Of a DNA stretch of 64,000 nt, positions 30,959 through 36,037 are shown piece after piece; positions within the stretch are counted from its first letter, which is position 1, and each line of letters opens with the position of its first letter. A program made the translations under genes and the position numbers. The notes beneath the pieces were generated by a model. The model ran no database searches. It had not been told where the DNA came from and saw only the letters and a program-made list of their open reading frames with translations. Source of the stretch: Isoetes taiwanensis (taxonomy: Eukaryota > Streptophyta > Lycopodiopsida > Isoetales > Isoetaceae). Location: contig JAJEKV010000092.1 of the NCBI GenBank assembly GCA_021234155.1, positions 2,180,561 through 2,244,560 on the forward strand, written 5' to 3'.

Positions 30959-31139
30959 GTGTATTCTGGAATACACTTTTGCTTTTCTAGAAAAGACACA
31001 TGTATTCCAGAATACACTTTGGATTTTCAAAGAAAGCAAAAGTGTATTCCGGAATACACTTTTAATTTCCTAAGAAAGCAAATGCGTATTCTGGAATACA
31101 CCTTTGCTTTCTAAGAAATCAAATATGTATTCTGGAACA
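30959..31139. repeat. Left array of 18-bp palindromes, about 41.5-bp spacing
   Basis: The palindrome GTGTATTCTGGAATACAC and close variants start at 30959, 31000, 31042, 31084 and, partly decayed, 31125. The spacing is 41, 42, 42 and 41 bp. The linkers are A/T-rich and often AAGAAAGCAAA-like. A matching array is present near the other end of the element. The likely role is as binding sites for the transposase of the autonomous partner. Confidence 0.9.
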
Positions 31140-32626
31140 ACATGTTGCCTATATGTTAAGGTTTAGAGCACCCCACAACTGTTAAAATTGTCATCCTGCA
31201 TTCTGAAATCTTTGAAGAATGGATGGAGACTTGATGTGAATCTGAGATATTCAAAAGTGTGAACCTGAAGAAAATGTAGTAGTGGCCATTGACAAACAAT
31301 CATGATGCAAACGAAGTATGATTTGTCCATCATCTGTGGCCTAGCCTAGTGGCCATTGACAAGCAATCAATCACCAAGGTAGTATTTCTTCAATACATAT
31401 TAAAGCCTTCAACCAAGGATGAAGCTTCCTTCATTTTGCTTCGATGATTAATATCTTTGATGCCATTGACCGAGCTTTTGCTTCGGGTAATTGTTGTTAT
31501 TTTAAGGATTTAACTGGGTAAATTAAGTAATGATAGAAAACCCAATTTTACATGGTAGTTGTCAATTAAGCAATGACAGGAAACACAGTTTTATATGGTA
31601 GTTGAAGTGTACATCTCACATGATCATTTACAAGTAGTCTCCACTAAGTAGTAGATTAATATTTTGCAAGGAGAAAAAATAATATTGTCAGTCACGAGTT
31701 TTATCTAGTTTGAAAGATCCCAAATTCTCAAGCCACGATCGACATGTGTTTTTCCTGCAGATTGAGAATATGGTATCGACTTAAGAGTGTGGTGTGTACA
31801 TGTCATAGAAGGCCCCAAATACTCAGCATCTGCCTATTAAGGTCCCCAAAAGATCCTTTGGGGTTAGTTCAATGGTGTGGGGTTTTTGCTATATTTTTTT
31901 TTTTTTTTTTTTTTGGGTTATGGCACTTCTTTGGCAAACATATGGGCGTGACATGCAATGCCAATTGGGACCCGAAGTTATGGGTTGCTTTTGTTTGGCG
32001 AACAAGAGGCTTTCTCGGACGCAGACTGGTGGCTGCAAGCTGAAGATAGATAAATTCTTTGCTACTATTGCTTCAATTTAAAGATTTAACTTCTTTAACT
32101 TTAATGTGAACAATTGTTAAAGTATTCTAGAGCCATGATATATTTCATTAGCAAACCTGCTGGATGTTCTCTAATTGCACCCAGCATCATTCATGGAAAA
32201 TGGGAGTAATAAAAACCTGAGAATGCACACGTTTTAGAGAGATCTCAAAGAGTACTAACTAGTTGCAACGTCCCTCCAACTATCAATGATAAATTAAGCC
32301 CTGTTACAAAAGCAAGCTTCAATGCACAGCAAACAGCCATCTTGCACTATTATTTAAAAGCCACACAGCATCAATATATCTATGAAATATGCAGAAAAGC
32401 CAAACATCTAGATCTAATCTCTATACTAACAAATGGGGTTGCAAGGCCAAAGATATCCAAAAAGCTTTACTGACGTAGAATCAATCAAGTAATCTGATCT
32501 CAGCTAATCTAAGCAAATCACCATGTCTTCTGCTGGTTCAACTGCTGGACACTTTGAATAACCATGTAGAGTACGTTCAACCCTCTGTGAATATCCTGTA
32601 ACAAGATTCTTAAGCTGCACCAGAAT

Positions 32627-32730
32627 AGAGAGAGAGAGAGAGAGAGAGAGAGAGAGAGAGAGAGAGAGAGAGAGAGAGAGAGAGAGAGAGAGAGAGAGAG
32701 AGAGAGAGAGAGAGAGAGAGAGAGAGAGAG
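32627..32730. repeat. (AG)52 microsatellite
   Basis: An uninterrupted AG repeat of 104 bp inside the nested element. Open frames through it (Arg-Glu or Leu-Ser repeats) are artefacts. Confidence 0.97.
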
Positions 32731-32982
32731 CTCTCCCACATGCTCCAAAAATTTTTGGGAGAGAGCATGAGAGAGGGCGAGAGGGGGGAGAGAGAGGTGA
32801 GAGTGGGAAAAACCCACTCTCACCTTTTCGTGTGTGAGAGAGGATTTATGGCTTAACTGGGCCACAGACCATTTCCCATTGACCGACACCAGTTAAGCCC
32901 TTTTCCCTTCTATTTTTTGCGGGCAGGGTCCCTTCTATTTTTTGCAAAGGAGGCCATGGCATTTCGAGCACATCTGGGCAGG

Positions 32983-33082
32983 GCAGGGCACTGGGCAACT
33001 ACGGCGGCTACGGCTATGGATATGAAAAATTCGTGCAGGGCAGGGCACTGGGCAACTACGGCGGCTACGGCTATGGATATGT
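32983..33082. repeat. Two copies of a 43-bp unit, 57-bp period
   Basis: The unit beginning GCAGGGCACTGGGCAACT occurs at 32983 and 33040 without visible change. Read forward it would encode NYGGYGYGY, a glycine/tyrosine-rich motif, but no continuous gene surrounds it. Confidence 0.85.
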
Positions 33083-33089
33083 ATGGAGC

Positions 33090-34290
33090 AGTAAACACAT
33101 GAACCCAGGTATTGTGCAATCTGGTACAGAGAATCCGGCAATTTGAAGGTAGAATCCGGCAATTTGAGGGCAGGGTAGAGCAGTGCATGGCATTGTATTC
33201 ACAGATCTGGTTCTGAATTGAAAGTTCTACATAAAATAAATCTTGAAGAAGAGGGCGAGCACGATCTCCAACAGGTGGGCTTATGATATATGGCTCAGCA
33301 GTTGGCCACGCTTCCGGATATAGCTAAATCTATGGCTTCCGAATTTGGCTTCTATTGCAGATTTGGCTTCTATAAGCCAGGAACTTTTTCCTGCAAGCTT
33401 GTCGGATCACGCCCAGCTTTTTCCCAGCAGAGTATCGTTTTTGAATCACAGTGGAGTAAAACATAACGACACTCTTTTGCCCTCTTCAAGGTGGCCTCCT
33501 TCGATCAAACTGTTGGGGGGTTCTTGAGTATCAGACTTCTTACATGATTTATGATTCTTTTAGATGGGCTTCAAGGCTGCAAATCGTGGAAACGGCTTCG
33601 AGGCTATAGAGTTGCAGAAACAGGACCTCAGCTCTTAAGCAAGTAGGCTGATGCTCACACAACTGCGGAATCAAGGCTTCAATAGAGGCCCATACAAGGA
33701 TATTAAGCTTCTACCATATCCAAATCCGGGTTGCTTCTTATTTGATGTGAAAACTTGGAAAACGTGGGATTCAAGCTCTAATCATAGAGAAATGGGCTAC
33801 AAAGAGAGGATGCCTGTGATGCATAGATGAGATTAAACCCACAAAAAGTTTCTTATTTCAATCAGCTATATGTTTTCTTATATGAATTGATGCAGCAACA
33901 AGGATCCTCTGCTTTCAGTTCGAATAGAATGACAGAGCTTGAAAAGCTCGGATATAAATTTAGAGCTTGAAAACAGAGCTTGAATATGGATTTAGATCGG
34001 ATACCAATAACAGAGCTAAGGCATGATTAACAGAGCTCTGGTCATCGGATCAAAAGGCAACACGCTTGTCCCTTATTTTTCCCTGCTTGTCCCTTATTTT
34101 CCCCCTTCTTAAGCCTGCCCGCGCCTGCCCGCATACGTCTGTAGAAATAAAATGCTAACTAAGGGGGGGTTAAGCCTCGAGAGATTATTAGAGATTATTA
34201 TCTCTCATGCCTCTCTCATGAAATACGTACAAATTTTATCTCTCGCCGTATAGCACGAGAGATAAAATATTTGCATGCATGTGGGAAACC
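33090..34290. other. Interior of nested element; no gene recognised
   Basis: No domain is seen in either strand. Words such as AGAATCCGGCAATTTGA (33127-33170), TGGCTTCTAT (33340-33375) and CTTGTCCCTTATTTT (34067-34100) are each repeated locally. Confidence 0.4.
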
Positions 34291-34452: not shown

Positions 34453-34743
34453 CTTACAATGTCTGAAGTGTTGCCAAATTTGTGATAGCAACAGGTATTC
34501 AATTTCTATCAAATTTATTCATCCCTATGGCCCTGTTAAGTGTAAAGGTGATGAATTTATAAATTGTCCTTGAGTTTCTATTAAAAAAAAGTTAGTCAAA
34601 CACTTACAATAATTGAATACTTTGTAGACTTGAAATGTTCACAAATGTTCCAGTAAAGCTGTTATTCCTTAGGTGGCTGCATAAACAGAACATATATACA
34701 TGAACATAGGCACGTGAGGTCAAGTCTACAGCATGAACCCTCC

Positions 34744-34957
34744 TTACAGTTCTATGAGATGGGAGAGCTTGCTAATGGCTGAAGGAATGGAACCACTGAA
34801 CATATTGTTGTCCAGCCGCCTGGAAAAGGACTGGCATAGATTAGTAACATACTAGAGGCTTTGCCGGTCAAGAAAATTGTCCACAAAGCATTACATTATT
34901 AGTAATTTAGAGAAGTTGCCAGTTTCTGCCAGATAAAGAGTTGCCATCCACCAACCT
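34744..34957 (-). pseudogene. Captured leucine-rich repeat gene fragment
   Basis: On the minus strand, 34820 to 34744 reads RLDNNMFSGSIPSAISKLSH followed by LIEL, and then a GTAAGG donor at the position where plant LRR exons end. Upstream, 34957 to 34915 reads LVDGNSLSG after an AG acceptor, a second repeat exon. The pattern resembles the one-repeat-per-exon layout of plant LRR receptor kinases. Kinase and membrane parts are absent. Keeping the splice junctions implies capture of genomic DNA and not of mRNA. Confidence 0.65.
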
Positions 34958-35099
34958 GATTAATTATGGCAAAAAATAGATCAATCCAACATATTTGACA
35001 CCGTTGAATTTCAAACTGCTTAAGTAACTGCCTCGACTCTGGTACTAACTTGATTGACCTACAAGAGCTTTCCTTTTCACACTTGATGGTTGGATAAAC

Positions 35100-35395
35100 A
35101 TCTGATGCTAAATTTCGAAGTCATGAAGCTGCTGCACAATGAGCAGTGTCCCTGTATCTGCAAACTCAAATTTGGTAGCACCTGCTTCGTACCATATTGG
35201 CAAGTCTTTTGATATTGTACTGCGTAGAAGCTGTCACAGAATTTCATGGGAGTCACTTACATCAGTAAATAAAATTCCAGCTACCCCAGCCATTGCAAAG
35301 CAAGCATGGACAAGTTCTGCCTGAGATACCGTCTCAAGCTCTTCGGTTCCTTCCCAAGCTCTAAAGGATCAAATCCAAAGTCACTAGCAAGACTG
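35100..35395 (-). pseudogene. Captured LHCI antenna protein fragment (Lhca5-like)
   Basis: Read on the minus strand, the first part has FGFDPLELGKEPKSLRR. After a one-base shift near 35320 it continues AELVHACFAMAGVAGILFTD. A GTAAGT donor follows, then a 30-base remnant ending ACAG (35231-35260). The second exon reads LLRSTISKDLPIWYEAGATK and FEFADTGTLLIVQ. This is the middle of a photosystem I chlorophyll a/b-binding protein. The FTDLLR...LPxWYEAGA wording is closest to Lhca5 from memory. The retained but shrunken intron argues for DNA-level capture. It is a broken fragment with no transit peptide or other helices. Confidence 0.75.
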
Positions 35396-35892
35396 CAATT
35401 CAAAAACATTGTGAAAATAAGCATATACATGCTTTTAATTCTAATCCGTCAAGGTACTTTGGTGGCGACAAGCCAGACAACCAAGTGTTTCACAAGCAAG
35501 ACCACAATCCGGTATCCCTAGCCCCCACAAATCAAAGAAAGGAAGTCCTTTATTATTTAGAACCATCTTCCTGTATCCCAAAGAAACAAATAAATAATTT
35601 ATTGTATCTTCCTATGGTCATTCAAATAATTGAAAAAAAAAATGTGAAGTCATGGAAAATGTCGAAAAGCCTATTTAATGTTGCTTTGTTTATCATTTTG
35701 TTATTCTAGAATAGGAAATGTATTTCCACATAAAAAAACAAAATAAAATCGCACATAAAAAAAATAAAATTGCAAGGTCATTCAAATTAACTGAAACAGA
35801 GAAAATTGCAAGGTCATTGAAAATGCCAAAAACCCAAAAAACCTGGAAAATTGCAAGATCACTGTTGAGTCTCAAAAACTTGTACAGCAAAA

Positions 35893-36037
35893 GTGTATTC
35901 TGGAATACACTTTGAATTCGAGCAAGAACAAAAATGTATTCTGGAATACACTTTTATTTTTAAGAAAAGTAAAAGTGTATTCCGGAATACACATTTGTTA
36001 TCCTCGAATAGCAAAAGTATATTTTGAATATAATTTT
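35893..36037. repeat. Right array of 18-bp palindromes, about 41.5-bp spacing
   Basis: Copies of GTGTATTCTGGAATACAC and variants start at 35893, 35934, 35975 and, decayed, 36017, spaced 41, 41 and 42 bp. The array lies about 360-505 bp from the right end. The left array lies 511-691 bp from the left end. Confidence 0.9.

Follow-up and report, generated by a model that had tools for sequence, protein, structure and literature searches.

The window analyzed here is a 64,000-nucleotide stretch of the Isoetes taiwanensis genome (contig JAJEKV010000092.1, positions 2,180,561 to 2,244,560 of the forward strand), in which a 5.95-kb DNA transposon carrying two arrays of an 18-bp palindrome (window positions 30448-36398) splits a long interspersed nuclear element (LINE). 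The interrupted LINE lies on the minus strand, with an endonuclease frame at 36381-36875, a reverse-transcriptase frame at 27060-30461 and the insert between them. When the insert and one copy of AGTA are removed by eye, the frame reads GDFNNTPSWDLKLG, matching GDFNNTPVWDQKLG in another such LINE in the window (56065-59670, minus strand), which served to read the empty site. The AGTA target-site duplication flanks the insert on both sides (30444-30447 and 36399-36402, plus strand), and the insert is bounded by 25-bp terminal inverted repeats with 88% identity (30448-30472, plus strand, and 36374-36398, minus strand). A CACTA reading of the ends, considered from the resemblance of TACTAACAAG to CACTA, was rejected, as a 4-bp duplication is needed for the LINE to stay in frame, in agreement with the other copies. 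An earlier note on this DNA had placed the feature at 30959-36037, an interval that spans the element from array to array; the element itself extends past it on both sides.

Relatives of this element were found elsewhere in the assembly (C and L handles below), and their termini are likewise of the AACAAG type. Each of seven elements compared has one A-type end, on the methylase side of gene-bearing copies, and one B-type end, on the transposase side; in the window, 30448-30472 is the A-type end and 36374-36398 the B-type end. The 4-bp target duplications are identical in all eight two-ended elements, the window element included (AGTA, TTTA, ATAC, AATA, ATAT, TATA, CCAC and TAAT), a count that leaves out elements with one or no recognizable end in the fetched stretch. 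The AATA element (C21) has two near-identical duplicate junctions as candidates for its left end. This C21 element sits inside the palindrome of another copy (L010:5859-5898 and L012:65-110, with the duplicate junction at L010:1617-1656), where its flanks read GTGTATTCTGGAATA and AATACAC and the duplication AATA lies within the site. Repeated insertion into palindromes was rejected as an explanation of the two C21 junctions, which represent one event that was duplicated (flanks 95.6% and insides 97.5% identical).

The palindrome arrays

Seven sites in the element match GTGTATTCYRGAATACAC at 0-1 mismatch, compared with a chance expectation of 0.04, and seven or more were reached in 0 of 100 shuffles. 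Four of these sites form the left array (30959-31101, plus strand; starts at 30959, 31000, 31042 and 31084) and three form the right array (35893-35992, plus strand; starts at 35893, 35934 and 35975). Nine palindromes had been listed in the earlier note, and the remaining two prove degenerate: the fifth left site (31125-31142, plus strand) has its left half-site alone intact and reaches 1.8 bits in a weight-matrix scan that gives the seven good sites 29-33, and the fourth right site (36017-36034, plus strand) is a base short by eye and falls outside the window's top 22 in that scan. The reported spacing of 41 or 42 bp holds throughout the nine sites, with distances of 41, 42 and 42 bp in the left array, 41 and 41 bp in the right array, and 41 and 42 bp to the degenerate sites at 31125 and 36017. 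The description of the arrays as mirrored is not demonstrable, because a palindromic site reads the same in either orientation and the two arrays align equally well directly and inverted. Helical phasing is compatible with this spacing, and a fixed period would also be expected from tandem duplication.

Among the seven window sites, identity is 91% in the core and 53% in the outer spacer, 14 bp of each repeat unit. When pooled, the seven spacers show self-complementarity around the midpoint (50 of 80 pairs compared with 37.4 in within-half shuffles, p ~1e-4), which gives the repeat unit two alternating dyads about 20.5 bp from each other. Runs of palindromes (0-4 mismatches) at half the usual period, every 19-20 bp, were observed at L009:2320-2397, L006:2168-2204 and L014:2533-2569.

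Counts over the assembly of 1,658,258,908 bases yielded 4367 matches to the palindrome and none to the reversed pattern. Facing half-site pairs with 23-24 bp between them, corresponding to the 41-42 bp spacing, numbered 2486 and 2547 on the two strands and 0 in the reversed control. Thirty stretches were taken around listed sites, most of the 4367 matches lying outside this sample. The earlier note had held that scatter of the palindrome without relation to the element would speak against its proposal; the palindrome is indeed abundant genome-wide, yet every fetched set (sets chosen around listed sites) carries terminal repeats, arms or gene pieces of the transposon family. The note had also named absence or irregular spacing of the arrays in other copies as a refutation, and this was not borne out: the arrays do recur there, mostly at the same spacing, with 68 of 84 adjacent distances of up to 130 bp measuring 41-43 bp across 15 sequence sets and the others ranging from 19 to 121 bp.

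The 219 kb first examined contain 96 sites at two or fewer mismatches, compared with 0 after shuffling. Of the 18 palindrome positions, 12 carry one base in at least 95% of these 96 sites. At the center, the dinucleotide is CG in 48 sites, CA in 28, TG in 19 and TA in 1, which fits an ancestral central CpG decaying through deamination of methylated cytosine; this pattern suggests that many copies may have been silenced.

Gene-bearing relatives and the origin of the window element

The gene-bearing relatives contain three genes, namely a Sola2-like transposase with a DUF7869 domain (E 1.4e-41 in C23), which we take to be the Sola2 transposase core, a gene designated gene B, and a bacterial-type N6/N4 DNA methylase. 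The recurring order is methylase (minus strand), array, gene B (minus strand), array, transposase (plus strand), or its mirror image, with C4:2300 and C18 showing part of this order only. The methylase gene lies at L013:778-2057 (minus strand) and has relatives in L005, L007, L017, L011/L018, L032, L033 and L034. Its C-terminal piece matches PF01555 (E 5e-17), with CcrM, MboIIA and RsrI as the nearest solved relatives; for its N-terminal piece the best match is not significant (E 0.045). In the gene, the piece with IADLPYG comes before that with DAFSGSGTT, so that catalytic motif IV stands ahead of motif I (motif names assigned by eye), as in PF01555 DNA amino-methylases of the beta class. A ParB-like reading of gene B, made by eye, was set aside for want of sequence-search support.

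Synonymous divergence between copies ranges from a dS of 0.44 to above 1 and is saturated for one further gene B piece. One methylase piece has a dN/dS of 0.22 (one pair) and the other 0.03-0.09 (three pairs); the ratio is 0.07-0.13 in a transposase piece (three pairs) and 0.03 in a gene B piece (one pair), indicating that all three genes are under purifying selection. Gene pieces of C3, C4, C21, C23 and C30 contain stops or frame breaks, so many copies are dead. A tblastn search at E 1e-4 found none of the family's gene pieces inside the window.

The position of the arrays was determined in seven gene-bearing elements, which hold 51 of the 96 sites. Fifty of these lie in two intergenic regions and one in the gene B block, with block limits taken from tblastn hits, the C1 and C3 element limits set by hand, and a 5-kb-wide region of C18 counted as intergenic. 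The other 45 sites were left out of this count, 27 belonging to gene-less elements and 18 to further incomplete elements of scaffold C21. Three additional gene-bearing loci used as a check placed 20 of 21 sites in intergenic regions (6/6, 9/10 and 5/5; table read by eye), giving a combined 70 of 72 sites at two or fewer mismatches in the two 5′ intergenic regions. At this threshold, the methylase and transposase blocks contain 0 sites. For the three gene-bearing copies whose two ends were located, the distance from the start of the array to the A end is 1.87 kb in C23, 1.98 kb in C30 and 10.2 kb in C21, and that to the B end is 3.97, 4.01 and 3.95 kb, respectively.

Comparison of the window element with these copies reveals how it lost its genes. 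The A-arm flank (30473-30752, plus strand) matches both gene-bearing and gene-less copies: 30524-30752 aligns with the A-end flank of the gene-bearing C30, L032 and L034 at 69-71% identity, and 30518-30752 with the gene-less C4:72k, C2, C1:324k and L031 at 85-92%. Adjoining it is a remnant (30757-30955, plus strand) of IG1, the intergenic region that lies upstream of the methylase gene. Within this remnant, 30757-30790 and 30816-30884 match C30 at 12021-12054 and 12091-12159, and 30759-30884 matches IG1 of L032 and L034; the match to C23 IG1 covers 30759-31137 (E 3e-33). With the A-end flank directly abutting the methylase-upstream region, the methylase has been deleted between them, at a junction near 30755 that is seen against C30, L032 and L034. 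By these alignments, the window element is a gene-less derivative in which deletion brought the arrays near the ends. The B-arm (36036-36398, minus strand) is 90-93% identical to C2, C4:72k, C29 and L031, and 36141-36398 matches the gene-bearing C21, C23, C1 and C30 at 77-80%. Among gene-less copies, similarity on the A side ends by 31258; on the B side it starts at 35787, and in C29 and L031 weaker patches reach as far as 35501. Both array-bearing arms are common to these copies and the middle is mostly unrelated.

Candidate roles of the arrays

We consider it probable that the palindromes are cis-regulatory operator sites of this Sola2-like family and that the protein binding them is a dimer encoded by the element itself. 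The site is near-fixed amid synonymous divergence, lies 5′ of the genes and is kept in gene-less derivatives, which together argue for a binding platform of the family, and the TNPA and VANC sites offer precedents in which a protein of the element acts on repeats of this sort. A dimeric protein encoded by the family would bind the palindromes 5′ of the three genes, and the bound arrays would set gene expression, whether by acting on it directly or by holding off host silencing. Gene-less copies would keep the sites as a requirement for being opened up, or for being handled by the transposition machinery in trans.

Several observations weigh against this interpretation. Because resemblance to the palindrome was the criterion by which the 96 sites were collected, the search itself accounts for part of their conservation. 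At 3 mismatches, C23, C30 and C1 each gain one site within the methylase block, and the second intergenic region of L032 has no site at two or fewer mismatches. Searches of Pfam, PHROGs and PDB sequences gave no significant match for the gene B pieces. In addition, the array-bearing arms may be common to gene-less copies through descent alone, and the A side of C29 carries no more than two sites, each with 4 mismatches, yet its target duplications match.

A bolder reading, which we hold to be rather unlikely, is that the transposon runs an epigenetic system of its own, with the amino-methylase marking the arrays. The methylase and an accessory protein would act on the promoter arrays, leaving a modification distinct from 5-methylcytosine by which host silencing would be blocked or bypassed, and gene-less copies would share in this protection.

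The earlier note had proposed that the arrays near both ends form a binding platform for a dimeric transposase. Part of this is borne out: the element is a transposon, the arrays are its own, their site and spacing are conserved across other copies, and symmetric sites suit a dimeric binder. A primary role at the ends is unlikely, although a model in which the arrays serve as subterminal repeats that the transposase binds to build a synaptic complex has several points in its favor. In gene-less elements, the arrays lie 361-406 bp from the B end (4/4) and 502-709 bp from the A end (3/4), with distances of 408 and 465 bp in L031; the machinery could be drawn to the sites, as the insertion of C21 within the palindrome of another copy would allow; and the Hermes transposase is described, in the part of PMC10368747 concerned with its binding sites, as binding quasi-palindromic subterminal repeats with strict phasing. 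In the gene-bearing C23, C30 and C21, by contrast, the arrays are at least 1.9 kb from either end, and no site at two or fewer mismatches falls in the sequence that both kinds of copy share at their termini, namely the 25-bp repeats and the final 257 bp at the B end. The arrays are near the ends in the window because the genes were deleted. An end-binding role in gene-less derivatives is possible, since the array-bearing arms are kept while the middle changes.

The sites could instead be bound by a host transcription factor and exploited as promoters, with heat-shock elements as the example, a reading we regard as improbable. The TTCnnGAA core is present in each good site and the arrays adjoin gene starts, but conservation reaches well past the heat-shock core, and the heat-shock element proper, three alternating GAA/TTC units, has 0 exact matches within the window element.

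The arrays also have a marked capacity to fold. The left array forms a hairpin with a z of -13.7 (DNA parameters) and the right array one with a z of -11.5 (RNA parameters). As RNA, window positions 35880-36045 across the right array fold into one long nested hairpin of -65.5 kcal/mol, and the outer spacers of this array share ATTCGAG in inverted orientation. The right array folds best in its native order (-65.5, compared with -63.7 for the mirror order and -55.6 to -57.6 for the other four), and the native order of the left array ranks 5 of 24 and is thus not the best. Spacer halves covary between loci (0.643 versus 0.537 when permuted, 0/5000; 60 distinct spacers among the matches listed), also with one spacer per locus (0.693 versus 0.577). 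Within a locus, cross-pairing of spacers (0.653) equals self-pairing (0.664), which places the covariation at the level of the array and provides no proof of a hairpin; a hairpin constraint on single spacers was therefore dropped as a claim. It is conceivable, though improbable, that the arrays are selfish or passive tandem palindromes, acting as recombination or template-switch points that spread by duplication and conversion and mark cargo capture, with no bound protein. The long hairpins, the covarying spacer halves and the tendency of gene-less copies to lose similarity to one another close to the arrays agree with such a model. It leaves unexplained the near-fixed 18-bp site amid diverging spacers and the 5′ intergenic placement, and both the array-level covariation and the left array's native order speak against it.

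Comparison with known systems and further features of the window

The family shares with Sola and Sola2 elements the 4-bp target duplications and terminal inverted repeats described in the sections of PMC10741241 and PMC3627910 on these groups. Its putative placement as Sola2-like follows from the DUF7869 transposase core, taken to be that of Sola2; the three-gene architecture with a DNA methylase and the palindrome arrays set the present family apart. The AWWT-type duplications described for Dictyostelium Sola2 families (in the corresponding part of PMC3627910) are matched by one of the eight duplications here (ATAT), and AWWT may not define the whole Sola2 group.

VANDAL elements have a MULE transposase and a 9-bp duplication. 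Membership in MULE/VANDAL was rejected on the basis of the 4-bp duplication and the DUF7869 transposase, and Pfam found no VANC domain in the gene pieces scanned. The Arabidopsis VANDAL/VANC system is nonetheless similar, with a short motif dense in non-coding regions, arrays that evolve by duplication, and several element genes, as outlined in the portions of PMC5735166 and PMC10398659 that treat the motif; the VANC21 motif there is 9 bp and in one orientation, whereas here an 18-bp palindrome accompanies a different transposase. CACTA elements (En/Spm, soybean Tgmt*) likewise carry repeated sites, some palindromic, thought to be recognized by a TNPA-type element protein (PMC2613891, in its account of these repeats). 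The CACTA termini and 3-bp duplications are absent here, and the arrays are intergenic in gene-bearing copies.

Two systems bear on the methylase. In the algal-virus elements Mariner-2_PGv and Mariner-1_OLpv, a methylase stands beside the transposase as it does here, so a transposon methylase is not new as such; the section of PMC3627910 on these elements states that no methylase had previously been reported in transposons. These viral elements differ in transposase superfamily and in methylase domains and include an endonuclease, and arrays are not mentioned in that section. The bdelloid rotifer N4CMT is, as here, a bacterial-type amino-methylase of PF01555 in a eukaryote, and the relevant passages of PMC8885841 describe it as a host gene that marks transposons and has no eukaryotic homologues; here the methylase lies within the transposon family and is under constraint. 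A literature search on Sola2, DUF7869 or Isoetes with transposon methylases surfaced only PMC3627910, and pieces of the palindrome or terminal repeat retrieved unrelated subjects among the matches listed; the family is likely undescribed. No homologues were found for an array-encoded peptide, the palindrome was not found in viral contigs, and neither the A-arm nor the left array was found in plasmids. The family thus presents a plant transposon outside Arabidopsis with dense operator-like arrays at its genes, kept by gene-less copies, and a bacterial-type methylase under purifying selection within the same family, which makes transposon defence or control of its own promoters directly testable.

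Between the arms, the variable middle or cargo of the window element (31259-35500, unstranded) had no match at E 1e-4 in 11 scaffolds and L031-L034, in a search of all but the stretches around its (AG)n tracts (32601-32819 and 34291-34459). The middle includes two pure (AG)n tracts, at 32627-32730 (104 bp) and 34293-34452 (160 bp). A fragment of a leucine-rich-repeat receptor-like gene (34607-34895, minus strand) was read by eye from LDNNMFSGSIPSAISKLSHL and LRNNSFTG, its pieces having no match in a Pfam scan. A frameshifted fragment of a chlorophyll a/b-binding protein gene (35111-35448, minus strand) matches PF00504 with E 1.2e-4 at 35237-35368 (above the cut-off) and 0.012 at 35284-35448 (below it), and a third piece at 35111-35233 was read by eye and had no Pfam match.

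Elsewhere in the window lie a MULE-like fragment (44227-44991, minus strand; SWIM domain, remainder by eye) and a hAT fragment (60787-62762, plus strand; DUF659 and hAT dimerization domains), both of other superfamilies, and the tblastn search at E 1e-4 gave no partner transposase of the family in the window. A perfect 57-bp tandem duplication occupies the window end (63889-64000). The window also contains a GATA gene, joined from three open frames, which points to a probable lycophyte source, its three best relatives being in Diphasiastrum and Selaginella at 50-56% identity.

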